Part shown: one piece after another, positions 1,061 through 12,234 of the stretch | How the letters are laid out: the number at the start of each line of letters is the position of its first letter | Numbering within the stretch: position 1 is the first letter of the stretch | From: a virus | Reading direction: 5' to 3' (one strand) | DNA length: 40,110 bases | Virus record (IMG/VR): IMGVR_UViG_3300010883_000104 | Coordinates: 1-40,110 of that record | The notes under the pieces: model-generated | What the model saw: the letters and a program-made list of their open reading frames with translations, nothing else | Told to the model about the DNA's origin: nothing | The model's database searches: none | Program-made: the position numbers and the translations under genes

Positions 1061-1315
1061 TTATCGGTTAACGGTTGGAATGATAGCCGCGCTTAGGTGG
1101 TCCCAATGTAAAGTACGCAAGCCTTCGTCGGTTACTACGTCGTAACATCCATTCTGTTGGAAGTTATCGTTCTTTCCTAAGAGCCAACCGAAACTATACA
1201 AACCACCTGATTCATGAATACGTATATCAGAACCTTGTTCTGTGAATCTTAGTTTGTTTATAGTCATGTTTGTTAGGTTGTAGAATCCGAACTTCATATT
1301 CATATCTTTACTCAT
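1061..1315 (-). CDS. Small protein, unknown
   Basis: 84 aa, no recognised family. Mixed composition with several aromatic residues, suggesting a small globular domain. The leader GAGAGAGAAAAAAATA before the ATG matches the G-A-rich ribosome-binding leader used repeatedly in this region. The upstream promoter has lost its -35 box (see 1356-1384). Confidence 0.7.
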   Translation of the reverse strand: MSKDMNMKFGFYNLTNMTINKLRFTEQGSDIRIHESGGLYSFGWLLGKNDNFQQNGCYDVVTDEGLRTLHWDHLSAAIIPTVNR

Positions 1316-1355
1316 TATTTTTTTCTCTCTCGCTATTATTACTTACTACACTTAC

Positions 1356-1384
1356 AGTATATCAAATATTTTATTATAACTCTC
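1356..1384 (-). promoter_or_regulatory. Degenerate copy of the repeated promoter
   Basis: TGATATACT (an extended -10, with TATACT at 1361-1356) is preceded by an AT-rich spacer like the other promoters, but the -35 position reads GAGAGT. That stretch encodes the C-terminus of the gene at 1374-1577. It may act as an extended -10 promoter or be inactive. Confidence 0.4.
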
Positions 1385-1577
1385 GCAAAGATTCTAATAG
1401 TAGTTGCTCAAGTTCTTCTAGGTCATCAGTCGGGCATAGTCCTAACTCAAAGAGTACTGGGATTCTATCTTCATGTTTCTCTACTAACGAACGGGCGATA
1501 CTTTCGTGCGTACTTGTTATAAGTTCGTCAAGTAGATTGTTAATAACAGGTTCAAGGTTTTCTTTAACATTACTCAT
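1374..1577 (-). CDS. Small acidic helical protein, unknown
   Basis: 67 aa, very acidic, probably all helical, with a Leu/Glu-rich C-terminal segment (DDLEELEQLLLESLREL). The leader GAGAGAAGGAAAAAATAAA precedes the ATG. No consensus promoter is visible directly upstream, so it is likely cotranscribed with the gene at 1632-1880. No family recognised. Acidic helical proteins of this size in phages are sometimes inhibitors, but nothing in the sequence shows that here. Confidence 0.65.
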   Translation of the reverse strand: MSNVKENLEPVINNLLDELITSTHESIARSLVEKHEDRIPVLFELGLCPTDDLEELEQLLLESLREL

Positions 1578-1631
1578 TTTATTTTTTCCTTCTCTCGGAT
1601 TAAATCTTTCTAGTCTATCCTTAAACCTACT

Positions 1632-1880
1632 TTACCAACGGGACTCTTTCTCGCAGCAATCAGGTTGACCCCAGTTCTCATACTGCCAGTCGGATATTTC
1701 GTTATTCTTACAAAGCATATCAGTAAAGTTATTCCATTCTTCTCGTCGCATTGTGCCGTCAACATATGCTTTGCCGCCGTTGTTGCGTTGTTCAACCTGA
1801 CGAATAGCAGGAAGATATTCCTGTTTGAACATCTCTACTGCTTGTTCCCATAAAATAACTGTGTTAAGATCTGTAGCCAT
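1632..1880 (-). CDS. Small protein, unknown
   Basis: 82 aa, Trp- and Glu-rich, predicted helical. The C-terminal part is unusual (three Trp and two Cys in the last 18 residues). It is first in its unit behind a consensus promoter at 1913-1941. The overlapping reading at 1610-1795 is rejected because it lacks a ribosome-binding site and has poorer composition. No family recognised. Confidence 0.7.
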   Translation of the reverse strand: MATDLNTVILWEQAVEMFKQEYLPAIRQVEQRNNGGKAYVDGTMRREEWNNFTDMLCKNNEISDWQYENWGQPDCCEKESRW

Positions 1881-1912
1881 ATTTTTCTTACTCCGCGATT
1901 GTTTATATTAAT

Positions 1913-1941
1913 ATAATAACATATCTTTCATAGGTTGTCAA
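1913..1941 (-). promoter_or_regulatory. Sigma-70 promoter for the 1632-1880 gene
   Basis: TTGACA (1941-1936), 17-nt spacer, TATTAT (1918-1913) with TG one base before. The -35 lies inside the last codons (LDNL) of the gene at 1928-2149. Confidence 0.75.
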
Positions 1942-2149
1942 GCATTATTTCAATATTATTTTCATTTCTATGACTTTCAATCAGAATGCTTGTGCGAGGG
2001 TATGGGCTATCATTAACAAATATGGGACGGTCTAGGTCCAGATATAGGTTTTGCCCGTGTGTACTGACCTCAGTGTGCCAGATTGAACCTGTAAACGAAT
2101 ATTCGCCCAAGTACATGCCCTTAATCTTATCACCTTTCTCATATGCCAT
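1928..2149 (-). CDS. Small beta-rich protein, possibly KxGDLV-like
   Basis: 73 aa. The start AYEKGDKIKGMYLGEYSFTG resembles the K-G-D opening of the KxGDLV family, followed by beta-strand-like segments (YLDLDRPIFV, SILIESH). It follows the stop of the gene at 2160-2411 by 10 nt, with AGGAG upstream of the ATG. Its C-terminal MLDNL is encoded by the -35 region of the next promoter. Family membership is a weak inference. Confidence 0.7.
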   Translation of the reverse strand: MAYEKGDKIKGMYLGEYSFTGSIWHTEVSTHGQNLYLDLDRPIFVNDSPYPRTSILIESHRNENNIEIMLDNL

Positions 2150-2159
2150 AGGGAGGCTC

Positions 2160-2411
2160 CTAAACCTTGCGGATCCATTCTTTATGATAGTGATAGGTCG
2201 CCTTTTCTTGGCCGGGTACGGCTACGAGATAGCAGTCTTTTGCGCCCAAACCTAACTCATGACCACTTGGCCCTTTGTCTTCAGGACGTGACATGCGAAT
2301 AACAAGACCGATTGATGAATGTCCTGGGAGTAGGTCATCTTTCGCGCACTCGACACTGTGCATGTAATCCCAAATCTGGACTGTCTCTTCATTCTTAAAC
2401 TCTTTGCTCAT
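2160..2411 (-). CDS. Small protein, unknown
   Basis: 83 aa. A short acidic helical N-terminus is followed by a beta-rich part with an RPEDKGPSGHELGLGAKD loop. First gene behind the promoter at 2446-2474, with a long GAGAGAGAGAAAAA leader. No family recognised. It forms a two-gene unit with 1928-2149. Confidence 0.7.
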   Translation of the reverse strand: MSKEFKNEETVQIWDYMHSVECAKDDLLPGHSSIGLVIRMSRPEDKGPSGHELGLGAKDCYLVAVPGQEKATYHYHKEWIRKV

Positions 2412-2445
2412 TTTTCTCTCTCTCTTTCTTGATTGTTATATATAT

Positions 2446-2474
2446 ATTATCTCATATATTTAAACAAAAGTCAA
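2446..2474 (-). promoter_or_regulatory. Sigma-70 promoter for the 2160-2411 unit
   Basis: TTGACT (2474-2469), 17-nt spacer, GATAAT (2451-2446) with an extended -10 TG. Confidence 0.8.
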
Positions 2475-2490
2475 GTATTATTTTTATTTT

Positions 2491-2751
2491 TTATGCTCTT
2501 TCTTCTTCGCAGAAGTTTTTAATGTCGAGCAAAGGAAGCTCTTCAACATAAAGAAACTCAGCGCCACATGTGATGTCGGTCCACTGTTCGACAAGGCTGG
2601 AAGCGGGCATGTTGTCAGGAGTGAGCGGACCCCACTCGTCAATGTACATTCCAGCCCATTGTTCAAGTTGCCACGATGCACCCTCGCGAGTCCTGAATGC
2701 TCGCTCGTCCGTGCCGTGCTTGTGCTCGTATTTTGCTAAGAAGATTTTCAT
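2491..2751 (-). CDS. Small protein, unknown
   Basis: 86 aa, acidic, with a Trp-rich middle (WQLEQWAGMYIDEWGPL). Its ATG shares bases with the stop codon of the upstream gene (TAATG at 2751), with GGAGGAAG as ribosome-binding site, so translation is probably coupled to the KxGDLV protein before it. The 2484-2681 reading in another frame is rejected as a shadow. No family recognised. Confidence 0.75.
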   Translation of the reverse strand: MKIFLAKYEHKHGTDERAFRTREGASWQLEQWAGMYIDEWGPLTPDNMPASSLVEQWTDITCGAEFLYVEELPLLDIKNFCEEERA

Positions 2752-2960
2752 TATAGTCTTCCTCCAATCATTTTGTTCTCGTCGTATCCAATAACTTCTA
2801 AGTCCACAGTGTCAACATGAAATGGATGAATACGGCCATCGACCATAACTTGCCATACTGGGCTTCCGGTTGAATAACCAGGGCCAACAAGCATTCCAAC
2901 CTTTCCTTTGTACTCGGGGTAGAACTCTTCATTGAACTTCACTAAATCACCGACTTTCAT
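2751..2960 (-). CDS. KxGDLV-family small protein
   Basis: 69 aa from the ATG at 2960; an in-frame ATG at 2972 is too close to the promoter. Starts MKVGDLVKF, then KGKVGMLVG, a central VWQVMVDGR and a C-terminal DLEVIGYD. This order (KVGDLV, G-x-V strand, V-x-W/V strand, L-x-V-I near the end) recurs in about fifteen proteins of this window and suggests a small SH3-like or KOW-like beta barrel. Function unknown. First gene behind a perfect TTGACA/TATAAT promoter. Confidence 0.85.
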   Translation of the reverse strand: MKVGDLVKFNEEFYPEYKGKVGMLVGPGYSTGSPVWQVMVDGRIHPFHVDTVDLEVIGYDENKMIGGRL

Positions 2961-2987
2961 TTTACTTCTCAATTAAATTATATTACT

Positions 2988-3016
2988 ATTATAGCAAACA
3001 TATTATTGGTTGTCAA
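2988..3016 (-). promoter_or_regulatory. Strong sigma-70 promoter
   Basis: TTGACA (3016-3011), 17-nt spacer, TATAAT (2993-2988), TG one base before the -10. A perfect consensus. The -35 lies in the last codons of the gene at 3003-3221 (LDNQ). Drives 2751-2960 and 2491-2751. Confidence 0.9.
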
Positions 3017-3221
3017 GAACTTTTTTAAGATGATCTGGATTTTCTCCAGTTTCGTCGTAGTCTGACCATCTCACAGTAATCTCTCCGTCGTATTCGTCAA
3101 CATGTATTACCTTTCCAACCGGAAAGGTTTTTATGGTTGAGCTTTGGCCAGGTAGATTCAAACCATCAATAATGGTTACCTTGTCGCCAATCTTAAATAA
3201 TGTGTCTTGTGTGTTTTCCAT
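3003..3221 (-). CDS. KxGDLV-like small protein
   Basis: 72 aa. After ten residues it reads FKIGDKVTIIDG, then VGKVIHVDEYDGEITVRW, matching the family pattern of a KxGD strand, a G-x-V strand and a V-x-W strand. This looks like a KOW/SH3-type barrel. Leader GGGAGAAGAAA before the ATG. It follows 3239-3829 closely, so the two probably share the promoter at 3860-3888. Role unknown. Confidence 0.8.
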   Translation of the reverse strand: MENTQDTLFKIGDKVTIIDGLNLPGQSSTIKTFPVGKVIHVDEYDGEITVRWSDYDETGENPDHLKKVLDNQ

Positions 3222-3238
3222 TTTCTTCTCCCTATTTT

Positions 3239-3829
3239 TTAAAACTGCTCAATCAATCGCACTTGTGCTGCTCTCTTTTCTTTCAAATAGTTAGCAATTA
3301 CGGGCACTTGGCGAGATTTATATTCTTCAGGTCGGAACAGGAAAATTAGTTCATCGGTCGGTATCTGAACCGTGAAACAATCTTTAGTTTTCTTAACATA
3401 TTTGTGAACAACTTCAGGAGATGCCAGTGCCACAGAAAAACTATGAGGACCACCTGTGTCGACAATCTGTAATACATCGTACTTTGATTCATACGTGCGG
3501 TTCTCGTCATCTCCAAGAGTATTCAACAACCGGATTGCTGCCGTGGTTTTTTTAAGGCTTCCGGTCTTCGTGTACAAAACGTGTTGTTGTGTCTTCTGTT
3601 CTGACTTTAGATTTACCGCTCCAGTCCTGCCGGGAGTTATGAAGTTATAAACGTGGTCATAACCTACTTGGTCAACCCATTCCAACTTCCCTTGGGAAAA
3701 CCATGCAGTTGCACATTCAAGTACATCGGATTTGTCGAATCGATTCTTACGTTCATTCAGTTGATTCCCTAATGATTCCACTAAGTTAAAGAAACGATTG
3801 TATTCTACTTCTGGAAATGTGTGCTGCAT
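3239..3829 (-). CDS. Unknown 196-aa protein, possible nuclease fold
   Basis: 196 aa, beginning MQHTFPEVEYNRFF, with a helical N-terminal part and alternating strands after residue 75. A segment around residues 50-82 (E in KLEWVDQ, D in GYDHVYNF, then VNLKSEQK) loosely resembles a PD-(D/E)xK nuclease core. The match is by eye and weak. It is one of the larger unknowns of the left region and leads its unit behind a consensus promoter, with leader GAGAGAGAAAAAAA. It could equally be a DNA- or RNA-binding regulator. Confidence 0.75.
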   Translation of the reverse strand: MQHTFPEVEYNRFFNLVESLGNQLNERKNRFDKSDVLECATAWFSQGKLEWVDQVGYDHVYNFITPGRTGAVNLKSEQKTQQHVLYTKTGSLKKTTAAIRLLNTLGDDENRTYESKYDVLQIVDTGGPHSFSVALASPEVVHKYVKKTKDCFTVQIPTDELIFLFRPEEYKSRQVPVIANYLKEKRAAQVRLIEQF

Positions 3830-3859
3830 TTTTTTTCTCTCTCGATTAAATATATTACT

Positions 3860-3888
3860 ACTATAACAAATATATTATCAGTTGTCAA
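3860..3888 (-). promoter_or_regulatory. Strong sigma-70 promoter
   Basis: TTGACA (3888-3883), 17-nt spacer, TATAGT (3865-3860), extended TG. Predicted leader about 25 nt to the ATG at 3829. Confidence 0.9.
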
Positions 3889-3898
3889 GAACTTTTTT

Positions 3899-4171
3899 TT
3901 ATTGTGAGCCTGATGCCACGATTGCAAAGTTTTTTGAAGGCCAACAAAAGTTGTTTGTTAGCCATCGATGAACACTCTCATTGAATGCTCCCTCGTGATC
4001 TGGACGCAAGTCCCATGGCACGTCGGGATCTGGCTCCATTGCTTTCAAGTCTGCCCATTCCAAACTTAATTCGTCGGGAAGGGTGACCAAGGAAGGCAAG
4101 TACTCTCTCTGCATTGCGATACCAGGATGGTTAAGGTCCCATTCAACGGCTATCAAGGTTCTCAGAGTCAT
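3899..4171 (-). CDS. Small acidic protein, unknown
   Basis: 90 aa, acidic and Trp/Pro-rich (DPDVPWDLRPDHEG), no recognised family. The ATG immediately follows the TAG stop of 4172-4375, so translation is probably coupled. Last gene of an operon running from 5083 down to 3899. Confidence 0.7.
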   Translation of the reverse strand: MTLRTLIAVEWDLNHPGIAMQREYLPSLVTLPDELSLEWADLKAMEPDPDVPWDLRPDHEGAFNESVHRWLTNNFCWPSKNFAIVASGSQ

Positions 4172-4375
4172 CTATTCCCCTTCAGGCATTGGGTCGATTG
4201 TCATCTTAGAGGGTGATGAAAGCATGGAGTTTTTAATCACGCTTGTCGCTAGTTGCACTAGCCGTTCCTCTGTCTCTTTGCCTGTTATGACCATCCGAAA
4301 ACTGTACTTTTTACCGTTCTTTAAGGTGGCTTTTACCATAACAACTTTATTTTTATTACTGATTGGTACATCCAT
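4172..4375 (-). CDS. Small protein, unknown
   Basis: 67 aa with two strand-like segments (KVVMVKATLKNG, KYSFRMVITG), then a helix and a Pro/Met-rich tail. It may be a small beta-hairpin plus helix domain. GGAGAG is the ribosome-binding site, formed by the last codons of the upstream KxGDLV gene. No family recognised. Confidence 0.7.
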   Translation of the reverse strand: MDVPISNKNKVVMVKATLKNGKKYSFRMVITGKETEERLVQLATSVIKNSMLSSPSKMTIDPMPEGE

Positions 4376-4380
4376 CGTCT

Positions 4381-4611
4381 TTACTCTCCTTTTGCTTTAT
4401 TAACTAGTATCTTGAACTCGTTTGGGTAACGCTCTAAATCACCAACAGCAAAGTAAAGTGCTAGGGTTTCACCCGACCAAAGGACGGAGGCTTTTCTACC
4501 ACCGGGTGACAACTTCAGCACGATACCAACCTGATTGTGCTCGCGAGCGTCACTTTCTGTGTCATAGTATTGATGGTGTGGAGTATATAATATTAAATCA
4601 CCGACCTTCAT
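4381..4611 (-). CDS. KxGDLV-family small protein
   Basis: 76 aa. MKVGDLILYTPHHQ, then NQVGIVLKLSPGG, a central ASVLWSGE and the C-terminal FKILVNKAKGE fit the family order (KVGDL, G-I-V strand, V-x-W strand, L/I-x-I-L end). Lies in a run of three family members (4381-5083), suggesting tandem duplication. No strong ribosome-binding site; it may be coupled to the tiny ORF at 4598-4669 that overlaps its start. Confidence 0.85.
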   Translation of the reverse strand: MKVGDLILYTPHHQYYDTESDAREHNQVGIVLKLSPGGRKASVLWSGETLALYFAVGDLERYPNEFKILVNKAKGE

Positions 4612-4669
4612 TTATAATATCCAGTTTATACCTCTGTACAATGAGAGCGCCGTATACTAACTGACTCAT
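4598..4669 (-). CDS. Possible 23-aa peptide
   Basis: Reading MSQLVYGALIVQRYKLDIIN and three more residues, stop TGA at 4600-4598. It starts 13 nt after the stop of 4683-4922 with AGGAAAAA upstream of the ATG, and runs into the start of the KxGDLV gene at 4611. It may serve mainly to couple translation. Very short, so uncertain. Confidence 0.35.
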   Translation of the reverse strand: MSQLVYGALIVQRYKLDIINEGR

Positions 4670-4682
4670 TTTTTCCTGTGCC

Positions 4683-4922
4683 TTATTCATCTTCGGCTAC
4701 CTCGCTTACCACTACTAAATATTTCTTGTAAGATTTTTTGACATGATTTGCTGCAAAGAAAAGTACTTCAGCAACCTCTTGCGATTCTTTTCCATACGCT
4801 GGCCAGTGGGTGGAGACGACAACACCTACTTCGCCATGATGAACGACCCAGGGTTTATCGGTTGTTCTCCTTTCAATGACTCCTAGTTCGTAATCATATA
4901 TTACTAAGTCACCGATCTTCAT
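4683..4922 (-). CDS. KxGDLV-family small protein
   Basis: 79 aa. MKIGDLVIYDYELGVIERR, then HHGEVGVVVSTHWP, EVAEVLFFAANH and the C-terminal KKYLVVVSEVAEDE. Same strand order as its neighbours. Its ATG overlaps the TGA of 4919-5083 (ATGA), so the pair is translationally coupled. Function unknown; the repeated fold suggests a small nucleic-acid- or protein-binding barrel. Confidence 0.85.
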   Translation of the reverse strand: MKIGDLVIYDYELGVIERRTTDKPWVVHHGEVGVVVSTHWPAYGKESQEVAEVLFFAANHVKKSYKKYLVVVSEVAEDE

Positions 4923-5083
4923 TTAACAATTAACAATTCCAGTGCGTCAGGCTGGATTCTCAATGTTTTGTTTTGTGCAAACAAAACTTCATAGTTGTCT
5001 ATCTCGCCACTGCTGTTCGCAAATGAACTCATAACAACGCCTATGCCTTCAGACTTGTGCTTAACTAAATCACCAATATTCAT
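4919..5083 (-). CDS. KxGDLV-family small protein
   Basis: 54 aa from the ATG at 5083, chosen over an in-frame ATG at 5125 because AGGGAATAAG sits before it and the product then starts like its paralogues (MNIGDLVKHKSEGIGVVMSS). The middle EVLFAQNKTL and the end DALELLIVK complete the family pattern. It is the shortest full member seen here and shows the minimal core of about 54 residues. Confidence 0.8.
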   Translation of the reverse strand: MNIGDLVKHKSEGIGVVMSSFANSSGEIDNYEVLFAQNKTLRIQPDALELLIVK

Positions 5084-5139
5084 CTTATTCCCTTTTATTA
5101 AATCACGGTTCTTCATTAGAACCAACTCTATATACGCAA

Positions 5140-5328
5140 CTATACGAACCCAATGCGGGGCTTTGTTGCTCGTTCACGGTCCTCAGAGCCCATGAAGTAC
5201 TCTACAACCTTGTGAGCGCCATCGATTGACGCTACCATAAGTTGGACGCCATCAGGCAACGACACAAGACATGAGCCATCTTGATTCTTTACTACAACTG
5301 GAAGCCCAAGTTCGATTGATTGATCCAT
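5140..5328 (-). CDS. Small protein, unknown
   Basis: 62 aa. Short strand-like segments (LPVVVKNQDG, SCLVSLPDGVQLMVASIDG) then a charged C-terminus. Behind the promoter at 5357-5385 with leader GAGAAACAAA. First gene of the operon that continues into the KxGDLV run. No family recognised. Confidence 0.7.
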   Translation of the reverse strand: MDQSIELGLPVVVKNQDGSCLVSLPDGVQLMVASIDGAHKVVEYFMGSEDRERATKPRIGFV

Positions 5329-5356
5329 TTTGTTTCTCGATTAAGTTTATATTATT

Positions 5357-5385
5357 ACTATATCAAATATTTTATTGTTTGTCAA
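5357..5385 (-). promoter_or_regulatory. Strong sigma-70 promoter
   Basis: TTGACA (5385-5380), 17-nt spacer, TATAGT (5362-5357), extended TG. Heads the operon 5328 to about 3899. Confidence 0.9.
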
Positions 5386-5397
5386 GAACTTTTCTTT

Positions 5398-5634
5398 CTA
5401 AGGCTCTGCTAGGTCACGACCAAAGGATTCGACGGACTCTTCATTCGCCTCCATATCAGTCATTATTTTAAGTCGCTGGGGGTGCTCGGTGACATTCACA
5501 GTCTCCTCTTCTCCAGTGTTCCACTGAAGTTTAGCAACCTCCATATAACTTGTAGGTGTTGAAAGGTTAATCATGCCAGTAATAACTCCGTTCTTCTCGA
5601 ACAGTTGGCACTTTACCAAATCTCCTGTCTTCAT
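5398..5634 (-). CDS. KxGDLV-family small protein
   Basis: 78 aa. MKTGDLVKCQLFEKNGVITGM, then EVAKLQWNTGEE, QRLKIMTDM and an acidic C-terminal tail not present in most relatives. AAAGGAG precedes the ATG. Behind its own promoter at 5667-5695. Function unknown. Confidence 0.85.
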   Translation of the reverse strand: MKTGDLVKCQLFEKNGVITGMINLSTPTSYMEVAKLQWNTGEEETVNVTEHPQRLKIMTDMEANEESVESFGRDLAEP

Positions 5635-5666
5635 TTCTTTACTCCTTTAAAGTTTATAGATAGGGG

Positions 5667-5695
5667 ATTATAACAGTTTTTTTATTCTTTGTCAA
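5667..5695 (-). promoter_or_regulatory. Strong sigma-70 promoter
   Basis: TTGACA (5695-5690), 17-nt spacer, TATAAT (5672-5667), extended TG. The -35 encodes part of the C-terminal LDKE of the gene at 5682-5897. Confidence 0.9.
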
Positions 5696-5897
5696 GTTTT
5701 TCTTTTTCTTCTTGTTTCTTTTTTCTTCCAACAACGACAAGCTCTTCTTCGTATCTCCATTCACTTGTGGCGTTCTCTGCAAAATAAACCTTGACCAATT
5801 TCGGGGCGCTGTTGATACCATTCTTTTCTTCTATGATATCAATGATTAAACCAAAGCCTGGATAATACCAATCCAACACTAAGTCTCCGACTTTCAT
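5682..5897 (-). CDS. KxGDLV-family small protein
   Basis: 71 aa. MKVGDLVLDWYYPGFGLIIDI, then KLVKVYFAENATSEW, EELVVVGRKKK and a highly charged Lys/Glu tail. Same strand order as its relatives. Ribosome-binding site GGAGGGC. The 3' end overlaps the next promoter. It follows the small membrane protein gene at 5947-6078. Confidence 0.85.
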   Translation of the reverse strand: MKVGDLVLDWYYPGFGLIIDIIEEKNGINSAPKLVKVYFAENATSEWRYEEELVVVGRKKKQEEKEKLDKE

Positions 5898-5946
5898 TTC
5901 GCAGTGCCCTCCGCTTCATTTCTAAGTAGAGCACCACTAGTGTTAT

Positions 5947-9706: not shown

Positions 9707-10210
9707 TTACGCTGCTTGTTGTGGCATACTGGCAATAATATTATCTTGTCGCCATCGAATCGTCCCAGGCTTAACCTTGGTTATCTGATACTTGCCGTCG
9801 ACAAAGATAGTCATCTTGTTTCGACCAACTGATACGACCAGACAATGGCGCTTATTGAGAGTCACTAGACTACCAACGGGTGGCATCTCTGCGTCAACCT
9901 CGAAGGGGATGTCCAGCTTGTGGTAGACCTTCTTCTGTCCTTCAACAGCGTATGCACCTTCCTTGGTCTTCTTGAAGACCTGCTTAATCTTCTTGGGCTT
10001 CGCCGTCATTGAGACAAACTGTTCGGCCTCAACTTCAAAGGTGTTCTTCCCTTTCTTCTTACAGGACAATACCCGAAGAACAATCGAGCGATACCTTGGG
10101 AAACTTACTGCTACGTGAGCACCGCCGCCACCCATTTCAACATGGCTCTCTAGTTTGTTATAGGAAACTCCGAAACACCACTTCTTCAATAACACGTCGC
10201 CTTTCTTCAT
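9707..10210 (-). CDS. Beta-rich basic protein, KKGDVL start
   Basis: 167 aa, basic. The start MKKGDVLLKKWCFG recalls the KxGDLV proteins, but the protein is twice as long. A second strand set occurs near the C-terminus (VGSLVTLNKRHCLVVSVGR, then KMTIFVDGKYQITKV), so it may hold two related barrels. Many Lys suggest nucleic-acid binding. Its first codons, leader and promoter are duplicated about 930 bp upstream (11129-11204), in front of the GIY-YIG cassette. Function unknown. Confidence 0.8.
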   Translation of the reverse strand: MKKGDVLLKKWCFGVSYNKLESHVEMGGGGAHVAVSFPRYRSIVLRVLSCKKKGKNTFEVEAEQFVSMTAKPKKIKQVFKKTKEGAYAVEGQKKVYHKLDIPFEVDAEMPPVGSLVTLNKRHCLVVSVGRNKMTIFVDGKYQITKVKPGTIRWRQDNIIASMPQQAA

Positions 10211-10275
10211 CGCTTGTCTCTCTATTAAATTAAGTTATGTTATTACTATAACAGATGTTTAATTAATTGTCAAGA
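10196..10275. repeat. Direct repeat copy A (start codons, leader and promoter of 9707 gene)
   Basis: About 80 bp covering the first codons MKKGD, the leader GAGAGACAAGCG and the whole promoter. Nearly identical to 11129-11204, apart from a 5-nt gap near TTAAATTAAG and a few substitutions. The copies flank the nuclease gene 10263-11060. Confidence 0.85.
10245..10273 (-). promoter_or_regulatory. Strong sigma-70 promoter (repeat copy A)
   Basis: TTGACA (10273-10268), 17-nt spacer, TATAGT (10250-10245), extended TG. Overlaps the LLDN end of the nuclease gene. Confidence 0.9.
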
Positions 10276-10508
10276 AGTTTCTTTTCTTTGTTGGCTTTGT
10301 AGTATTCTTTGGCGTACTTTGCAATCTTTTCTTTATTGGCTTCGCGGTATTCTCTTCGCTGCTTTGCAATCTCTTCTTTATTGGCTTCGTAGTATTCTTT
10401 CTTAGTCTTTAAAATCTTTTCTTTGTTGGCTTCGTAGTATTCTTTATCCCGCTTTGCAATCTCTTCTTTATTGGCTTCGTAGTATTCTTTGTTGGCTTCG
10501 CGGTATTC
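10263..10508 (-). repeat. Five 45-bp tandem coding repeats
   Basis: The 3' end of the nuclease gene holds five 45-bp units and one partial unit, each encoding a Lys/Glu-rich 15-residue repeat with the core EANKEK/EANKEE. Units are visibly similar at DNA level, so the number may vary between relatives. Confidence 0.85.
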
Positions 10509-11060
10509 TCTTAACCTGGTGTTGGTGCATTGTTTGCAAGGGGAGTCATATGATTCTTTATCTCTGCGGTAATAAAATTCTTCGAGTGGCTTTTCAATCT
10601 TGCACTTTGTACAAAAACGCTTGGACATGTCGGTACCGTTGCGTAGTGGAATTCTTTTATTCAACAAAAACGGATCGGCATAACAACTCCTAATGAGATC
10701 TCTTTCTGCTATTCTCATCTCTTCGGGATCTTGAAATTCCTTAACAACACTATATTTCAGATCTTCTTGGCTCAAAGAGTTTTCTTTAATATGTTTGGAA
10801 AGAGTAGTGCTTCCCTTCGCTCTAATATGACACCTTCTTCTTTGCTCGATACCGACGATTGTTGATCCAATATAATAGTATCCGCTGGGGCACTCTACTT
10901 TGTACAGATGATTAGCCTTTGGGCGCTCGTGCGCTGCCCTACGCATACACCCTTTACATCGAGATCTCCACTCATGAGTGTCTTTACGATTGCGAGCCGT
11001 TTTTTTATAAAACTCGGTAATCTCTTTTTCTATTTTACATTTGCTGCAAGTTTTCTTCAT
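10263..11060 (-). CDS. GIY-YIG nuclease with two zinc-ribbon-like motifs and tandem repeats
   Basis: 265 aa. A Cys4 motif (C5, C8, C35, C38) precedes a GIY-YIG nuclease core at about 52-135: LYKVECPSGYYYIGST, then RRRCHIR, the catalytic Glu in AERDLI and Asn in LLNKR. A second Cys4 motif (C150, C153, C175, C178) follows. The C-terminus is five 15-residue repeats (EYYEANKEEIAKRDK type, 192-265) plus a partial unit. It looks like a homing or mobile endonuclease with zinc and repeat DNA-binding parts. It lies between two copies of an 80-bp promoter segment, and its weak ribosome-binding site suggests coupling to the 25-aa ORF just upstream. Confidence 0.88.
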   Translation of the reverse strand: MKKTCSKCKIEKEITEFYKKTARNRKDTHEWRSRCKGCMRRAAHERPKANHLYKVECPSGYYYIGSTIVGIEQRRRCHIRAKGSTTLSKHIKENSLSQEDLKYSVVKEFQDPEEMRIAERDLIRSCYADPFLLNKRIPLRNGTDMSKRFCTKCKIEKPLEEFYYRRDKESYDSPCKQCTNTRLREYREANKEYYEANKEEIAKRDKEYYEANKEKILKTKKEYYEANKEEIAKQRREYREANKEKIAKYAKEYYKANKEKKLLDN

Positions 11061-11065
11061 ATTTT

Positions 11066-11143
11066 TTAGAGCAACCCGGCTTCCTCAAGTACAGTCACAT
11101 ACGTGCTGGGCTTGTGCCTCTTGGGGTAGTCGCCTTTCTTCAT
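11066..11143 (-). CDS. 25-aa chimeric leader ORF
   Basis: Starts MKKGD exactly like the 9707-10210 protein, using a duplicated leader and promoter, then changes to YPKRHKPSTYVTVLEEAGLL and stops (TAA 11068-11066) five bases before the nuclease ATG. The second part looks like the C-terminal tail of an unrelated protein, so the ORF is probably a recombination joint. It has the better ribosome-binding site of the pair and may couple translation into the nuclease. It could equally be a non-functional remnant. Confidence 0.55.
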   Translation of the reverse strand: MKKGDYPKRHKPSTYVTVLEEAGLL

Positions 11144-11204
11144 CGCTTGTCTCTCTATTAAGTTATGTTTATACTATAACAGATGTTTAATTAAAAGTCA
11201 AGCA
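11129..11204. repeat. Direct repeat copy B (upstream of GIY-YIG cassette)
   Basis: Second copy of the segment at 10196-10275: MKKGD codons, GAGAGACAAGCG leader and promoter. Divergence is small, mainly TTGACT for TTGACA and a shorter leader. Confidence 0.85.
11173..11201 (-). promoter_or_regulatory. Sigma-70 promoter (repeat copy B)
   Basis: TTGACT (11201-11196), 17-nt spacer, TATAGT (11178-11173), extended TG. Heads the 25-aa ORF and the nuclease gene, and overlaps the stop of 11198-11914. Confidence 0.87.
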
Positions 11205-11914
11205 GAAAGTAAATTATATTTTTGTTCATATGTCTCGGCTAGTGCTGCCAACTGAGATCTGTGAGAGGATTTCACTTCTGAGCGGTTAGGTAAATGTCTG
11301 AGGGTGAGTGAATATTCTTTCTCGATTTTTTCGGCTCGATTTCGATGAAGGTGATCGAGGTGTCGAGCACTCTTACCTGATGTGTAGTAAGTGCCAAGAG
11401 GCTCATTGTTCTCAAGTTTTGCCTTTTGGCGTTCAAGATAAGCCTCCAAGTTCTGAACTATGTCATCAAATCGTCTCTTGAATGTATATTTGGTGTACGG
11501 TTCGCCGCTGCAGAAGGTGTCCTGCTTAGTTTCGATAATCTGAGTGGCATCGACTCTAGCAAGAAATTGTGACAATTCATCCGGATTAGAAATATACTCG
11601 GAATCCATTTCCGAGGTAATACTAAAGTGAAGGCTACGACCATCAGGACGGCAGAAGCCCCAGCGACGGTCGTAGTCGCTGTCGAAGTCTCCTCTTTCTT
11701 TTAACTGTTTTATTTTGCTCTCAAGTTCAGACACACAATTATCAATGGATGTCCGCCTCAACTCATCAGCGGCTATATCCAGACGTTCATTGAAATCTTC
11801 AACAAAATCGGCTGACTGCCACGCTTTAATAAAAGATCCTGTCGTTAATCGGCAGTTCCGGTAATTCGAGCCTGGTTCGAATTCTAATTCTACACTTTTA
11901 AGTAAGTCATTCAT
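11198..11914 (-). CDS. Charged 238-aa protein, unknown
   Basis: 238 aa, strongly charged and mostly helical. Likely coiled-coil stretches lie around residues 55-75 and 155-175 (IVQNLEAYLERQKAKLENNE), with a beta-like middle (RWGFCRPDGRSLHFSIT). AGGAGAAATAG precedes the ATG. Monocistronic, with its own promoter at 11950-11978. The TGA stop is part of the next promoter's -35 (TTGACT). No family recognised. Confidence 0.75.
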   Translation of the reverse strand: MNDLLKSVELEFEPGSNYRNCRLTTGSFIKAWQSADFVEDFNERLDIAADELRRTSIDNCVSELESKIKQLKERGDFDSDYDRRWGFCRPDGRSLHFSITSEMDSEYISNPDELSQFLARVDATQIIETKQDTFCSGEPYTKYTFKRRFDDIVQNLEAYLERQKAKLENNEPLGTYYTSGKSARHLDHLHRNRAEKIEKEYSLTLRHLPNRSEVKSSHRSQLAALAETYEQKYNLLSA

Positions 11915-11949: not shown

Positions 11950-11978
11950 ACTATAGCAAATATATTATTGTTTGTCAA
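11950..11978 (-). promoter_or_regulatory. Strong sigma-70 promoter
   Basis: TTGACA (11978-11973), 17-nt spacer, TATAGT (11955-11950), extended TG. Confidence 0.9.
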
Positions 11979-11985
11979 GAAGTTT

Positions 11986-12234
11986 TTAATCTTCTTCTTT
12001 CTTTTTAAAGTCAACGCTGATGATGTTCTCTTCTTTGCTTATAACTTGTAGAGAAAGTTTCTTAGACTTCTGTCTACAGTTCTTAGCAACGTCGATGACC
12101 ATCTGGCTTATCTCTGGGTCATCATCACTCATGCCTGTTATTTTTATGAAGTCAACAAGAAGTTCCAAGTCCTCGGCTAACACTTGATAACAAAGACTAA
12201 GTGTTTCTCTTCTGTCCTTTGGGAATTTTGGCAT
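11986..12234 (-). CDS. Small helical protein, paralogue of 14052-14336
   Basis: 82 aa, helical. AEDLELLVDFIKITG and the C-terminal ISVDFKKKEED match AEDIELLVAFMELTE and KVDFKSISNKKERKE of the protein at 14052-14336, so the two are paralogues. Both end in the same VDFK plus charged tail, which may be a binding element. Preceded by the tiny membrane protein gene 12245-12328. No known function. Confidence 0.75.
   Translation of the reverse strand: MPKFPKDRRETLSLCYQVLAEDLELLVDFIKITGMSDDDPEISQMVIDVAKNCRQKSKKLSLQVISKEENIISVDFKKKEED

Follow-up and report, generated by a model that had tools for sequence, protein, structure and literature searches.

A putative GIY-YIG homing gene between two copies of its neighbour's promoter and first five codons in an environmental phage

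In a large environmental phage represented by a metagenomic contig, we found a gene for a GIY-YIG protein lying between two copies, each about 80 bp long, of the promoter, leader and first five codons of the neighbouring gene orf167. We assign a probability of roughly 0.55 to the reading that a GIY-YIG gene entered at the start of orf167 and that its entry left these two copies of the orf167 5′ end. In arriving, the nuclease gene probably did no harm to orf167 and also came to have a promoter. How a nuclease gene enters a compact phage genome without damaging its neighbour, and where its promoter comes from, is usually inferred from the end state only; here, the duplicated promoter and five codons record the junction, and relatives with a single copy show the older state. 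The case is ordinary in kind, a small twist on known phage selfish genes whose unusual feature is the copied coding start, and its weight is limited by being a single case in one metagenomic contig. It offers a testable picture of how a selfish gene does no harm when it arrives and is afterwards shielded from being lost cleanly.

The window, i.e., the whole stretch of DNA that was analysed, is the 40,110-base IMG/VR virus record IMGVR_UViG_3300010883_000104, in which proteins resembling a chaperonin, ClpX, ClpP and DNA polymerase III alpha were recognised by eye among the reading frames. Around the repeat, the minus strand carries, in this order, orf82, orf238, a mini-ORF, orf265 (the nuclease), orf167, a zinc-knuckle gene and an AAA ATPase, with the following features:

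11986..12234, minus strand: orf82, conserved, to the left of the variable region, where the relative L002 is collinear
11950..11978, minus strand: promoter of orf238, directly after orf82, at the left edge of the variable region
11198..11914, minus strand: orf238, a protein without assigned function upstream of copy B; its stop codon TGA lies within the -35 box of promoter B
11129..11205, minus strand: repeat copy B, with promoter TTGACT-17-TATAGT at 11201-11173, leader, AAGCG and ATGAAGAAAGGCGAC
11066..11143, minus strand: mini-ORF of 25 codons (MKKGDYPKRHKPSTYVTVLEEAGLL*), codons 1-5 copied from orf167, the remaining 20 without a match
10263..11060, minus strand: orf265 (nuclease), with a Cys-rich motif, the GIY-YIG domain, a second Cys-rich motif and 45-nt (15-aa) repeats
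10196..10277, minus strand: repeat copy A, with promoter TTGACA-17-TATAGT at 10273-10245, a leader with a tandem duplication of TTAAT, AAGCG and ATGAAGAAAGGCGAC
9707..10210, minus strand: orf167, the neighbour gene with the duplicated 5′ end, conserved in relatives and without assigned function

Copies A (10277-10196) and B (11205-11129) are identical at 72 of 82 aligned positions (87.8%; E about 1e-22 to 1e-25 within the 40-kb record), and they form the strongest direct repeat in the window once the 45-nt repeats inside the nuclease gene are left out. Each consists of a sigma-70-like promoter with a 17-nt spacer, a leader that runs from AACTTAAT to AGAGAGACAAGCG, the sequence AAGCG before the ATG, and the 15-nt coding start ATGAAGAAAGGCGAC, which is identical in both. 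The copies differ by a 5-nt tandem TTAAT insertion in A, by TTGACT in B for TTGACA in A, and by a few substitutions. The sequence-only reading had described an 80-bp segment repeated almost exactly; the repeat itself stands, but "almost exactly" is too strong for copies that are separated by a 5-nt indel and share an exact run of only 33 nt (TTAATAGAGAGACAAGCGATGAAGAAAGGCGAC). Similarity ends at codon 5 of orf167 (MKKGD), beyond which the sequences are unrelated. Because similar promoter-leader units are dispersed across this genome and its relatives, part of the 80-bp match is expected, and the specific duplication is marked only by the spacer TTAATTAAACATCTGT, the AAGCG and the five codons, the rest belonging to the promoter family. 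Among the listed promoters, this spacer occurs in A and B only; a 21-mer containing it was present in no contig of a 2.9 M viral collection, and the repeat unit was found in no other genome. The RNA folds of the A and B regions were not clearly better than those of shuffled sequences (z = 0.38 and -1.76, respectively), and no terminator-like site lies beside either copy. As a transposon target-site duplication, 80 bp would be unusually long, and no transposase gene was seen in the insert.

Within the 265-aa product of orf265, residues 46-145 scored 24.7 bits against PF01541 (cut-off 22.6), in keeping with the earlier placement of a GIY-YIG gene between the two copies, while searches with the full-length protein and a six-frame family search missed the domain. 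The motifs YKV..YYYIGST, RRRCH, AERDLI and LLNK can be read in the sequence, and with its GIY...YIG, R..H, E and N motifs the protein falls within the PF01541 superfamily. Like a free-standing homing endonuclease gene, orf265 is a gene of its own, is intergenic, and is missing at the same site in relatives; its product may be an active nuclease, and the gene may home. Similar Cys-rich stretches, as here at the N-terminus and in the centre, and similar 15-aa repeats, as here at the C-terminus, are seen in phage HNH and GIY-YIG proteins; at the locus L017, a GIY-YIG protein also has repeats of this kind at its end. No close relative of orf265 was found, most matches being limited to the Cys-rich and repeat parts common to HNH proteins, and a single-sequence AlphaFold2 model was too poor for use (pLDDT 48). 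The repeats themselves occupy window positions 10280-10504, where the nuclease gene ends in four to five tandem 45-nt units; each specifies a 15-aa KEYYEANKEKIAK-like unit, of a kind that occurs also in phage HNH proteins.

Downstream of B, MKKGD continues in frame into YPKRHKPSTYVTVLEEAGLL and then a stop, and the nuclease ATG follows 5 nt past it. No Shine-Dalgarno sequence lies near this start; the closest purine-rich sequence, GAGGAAG, lies about 20 nt before the ATG and is, judged by that distance, too far from it to serve well. Since there is no nearby Shine-Dalgarno and the start lies 5 nt after the mini-ORF stop, the nuclease is probably translated by coupling (termination-reinitiation) from the mini-ORF. 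The 20-codon tail of the mini-ORF was found in no other genome: nothing matching it turned up in annotated phages, among viral contigs (searched with two degenerate patterns) or in the fetched loci. A regulatory RNA hairpin over the mini-ORF was considered and found unsupported (z = -0.14). At the other end, the orf265 frame closes with ..KKLLDN*, its last codons coming from the promoter A flank and -35 box: the -35 box of promoter A (10273-10268) lies inside orf265, and the stop codon TAA (10265-10263) lies in the promoter A spacer, an overlap of the orf167 promoter with the nuclease coding region of the T4 type. Because the reading frame enters promoter A and stops there, the nuclease gene probably acquired its present 3′ end when the junction arose. 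Similarly, orf238 ends inside an embedded promoter, in the -35 box of B. A complete sigma-70-like promoter stands intact before both orf167 and the nuclease, which agrees with the earlier proposal that orf167 had its promoter restored and the nuclease gained one.

A viral-contig scan with orf167 yielded two close relatives, L001 and L002, each with 89% aa identity in orf167; a profile search added homologues in L034 and L035, and a scan with the ATPase (80 loci) further ones in L046, L047 and L052/L053, while bacterial genomes, scanned with orf167, yielded no relative. Both L001 and L002 have a single promoter-MKKGD copy, and one copy is also present in the five more distant homologues (L034, L035, L046, L047, L052/L053). 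No match to orf265 or orf238 was found anywhere in the 55-kb contigs L001 and L002, which are fragments. The expectation that a nuclease-less relative should have one copy of the segment was thereby borne out. The two copies are identical at 66 of 80 positions, compared to 56-60 for either copy against L001 or L002, and A and B have derived states in common that are absent from the relatives. Because each copy resembles the other more closely than it does the promoter of either relative, the duplication arose in the lineage of the window; by this comparison, the duplicate pair postdates the divergence from L001 and L002 and is hence lineage-specific. The B leader is nearer to the L001 leader than the A leader is, and for this reason neither copy is the pristine original.

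The upstream neighbours of orf167 differ between the window, L001 and L002. In L002, orf81 (equivalent to orf82) and a promoter are followed by two D12 methyltransferases that flank a 443-aa protein without family, then by a weak-HNH protein (its HNH match is below the cut-off), a promoter and orf167. In L001, a D12 methyltransferase is among the genes that precede orf167, and the orf82 homologue is on the downstream side. Because each close relative carries different DNA upstream of orf167, this site is, on these comparisons, a swap hotspot whose edge in all three genomes is the orf167 promoter. The same difference in neighbours means that a one-step insertion cannot be read off: none of the close relatives has an empty site, none equals the window minus the insert, and orf238, for which no relative was found in phages, viral contigs, L001 or L002, is lineage-specific as well. 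The idea of an insertion by target-duplicating recombination is partly supported, with the single copy in relatives and the lineage-specific duplication in its favour, and the other cargo at the site and the absence of orf238 there against it. The L002 segment from orf81 to orf167 (1134-5920), with its two D12 adenine methyltransferases, its 443-aa protein (possibly a restriction enzyme) and its weak-HNH protein, is likely restriction-modification cargo at the same site as the nuclease insert.

The promoters of A and B belong to a dispersed family, with about 14 promoters in the window similar to them in -35 box, -10 box and leader, and 9 and 14 in the two close relatives. Near-identical sigma-70-like promoters with the shared leader precede many genes, at window positions 3016, 3888, 5385, 7652, 8869, 9699, 10273, 11201 and 11978, and the same family occurs in L001 and L002; homology blocks often start at such promoters. 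Such units could serve as homology between co-infecting relatives that exchange promoter-plus-gene blocks, in which case the nuclease block (promoter B, five codons, mini-ORF and nuclease) would have come from a close relative with the nuclease as a passive passenger, a course of events that we consider possible though on the unlikely side. In line with it, orf167 homology extends to 7-11 nt beyond the -35 box on its upstream side whenever two of the window, L001 and L002 are compared; orf82 and orf167 flank other cargo in L002; and 13 of 94 alignment 5′ ends fall at promoters versus 0.7 expected, a count that takes each alignment in both directions and is inflated by promoters aligning to one another anyway. 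Other promoter pairs in the window match at 77-92% over 37-74 nt and end about at the start codon, whereas the A-B match runs 15 nt into coding sequence and includes a spacer unique to the pair, neither of which a generic promoter swap would give. Promoter shuffling accounts for the block edges, not for the coding extension.

An unlikely alternative history has two steps, with the nuclease arriving separately and the 5′ end of orf167 either partly duplicated in tandem beforehand or broken after codon 5 and then rebuilt from an intact copy. The same end product is expected from it, B does end within the coding region, and SegB of T6 shows that a GIY-YIG enzyme can bring about segmental amplification in tandem while its own C-terminus is shortened (PMC13096335); yet no remnant of the remaining orf167 lies upstream of A, and no relative has two copies without the nuclease. 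A tandem duplication of the full orf167 gene was also considered and rejected, as no further trace of orf167 is present inside the insert. That the structure is an assembly artefact, two strains having been joined at the repeat, is extremely unlikely: this is a single instance in a metagenomic contig with a 33-nt exact repeat, but exact identity covers only a short stretch, ten aligned positions, among them the 5-nt indel, set the copies apart, and reading frames as well as promoters make sense through both junctions.

Under our preferred reading of a nuclease entry at the start of orf167, a free-standing GIY-YIG gene would have come in between the promoter and start of orf167 and whatever lay upstream, by recombination, most likely illegitimate or short-homology, that retained about 80 bp twice (orf167 promoter, leader and first five codons). 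General promoter shuffling may have supplied the homology. Copy A would restore orf167, and copy B would provide the promoter, ribosome-binding site and start of a new cistron, in which the five B codons would continue into 20 codons of imported DNA up to a stop, with the nuclease start 5 nt on. We infer that this was one event, as well as the order of the steps. Because a GIY-YIG enzyme can promote local duplication in T6 (PMC13096335), a role of the enzyme in the duplication here is plausible, not proven.

The arrangement has several parallels. Insertions of seg/mob genes in T4 displaced promoters, and downstream-gene promoters now lie inside the endonuclease genes, where such embedded promoters at the gene ends are thought to favour nuclease retention (PMC2988022). 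Like the T4 seg genes, orf265 is an intergenic GIY-YIG gene that runs in the same direction as its neighbours, and the downstream promoter overlaps its end, so that a deletion would harm the neighbour (PMC2988022). Unlike in T4 seg, the orf167 promoter and five codons are present twice at this putative homing gene, and the nuclease seems to be driven from the upstream copy by way of the mini-ORF. The PeSL mobile regulatory cassettes of T4-type phages, as described in PMC4503421, resemble the present case in that dispersed promoter units edge shuffling gene blocks, a repeated promoter lying at the shuffling boundaries here too; they differ in that no stem-loop or terminator is found next to A or B and in that our repeat takes in coding sequence. 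Phage nuclease genes at exchange boundaries, where recombination occurs between intragenic repeats (PMC10448857), share with orf265 the GIY-YIG type, the repeated DNA-binding elements and the position at the edge of an exchanged region; those genes, however, are T5orf172/IPA-HNH near essential genes, whereas the target orf167 is without assigned function. In the T6 tandem segmental amplification, the SegB C-terminus was trimmed apparently by microhomology (PMC13096335). As there, a GIY-YIG enzyme lies beside a duplicated segment and the nuclease 3′ end is altered at a junction; unlike there, where the nuclease and tRNA genes were amplified in tandem, only 80 bp of the neighbour are duplicated here. 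We consider it very unlikely that phage nucleases in general enter by copying the neighbour's promoter, ribosome-binding site and first codons, which would make this a self-insulating mode and not a one-off; if true, each insertion would build a fused mini-cistron that drives the nuclease while the neighbour stays intact.

Some further observations concern the promoters and the start of orf167. A displaced ancestral promoter of orf167 was considered as the source of the orf238 promoter, which matches L002 at 91% over 47 nt; this idea was set aside as too weak in view of the shared promoter consensus. Another 80-bp promoter-region repeat, 78% identical and with another -10 style (GATAATA), lies at window positions 880-802 and 2504-2427. 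Lastly, runs of small genes starting with MK(V/I/P)GDLV occur at L002 6400-8000, L035 4239-9500 and L001 8363-9187, apparently a paralogous family expanded in these phages, and the start of orf167 resembles theirs.
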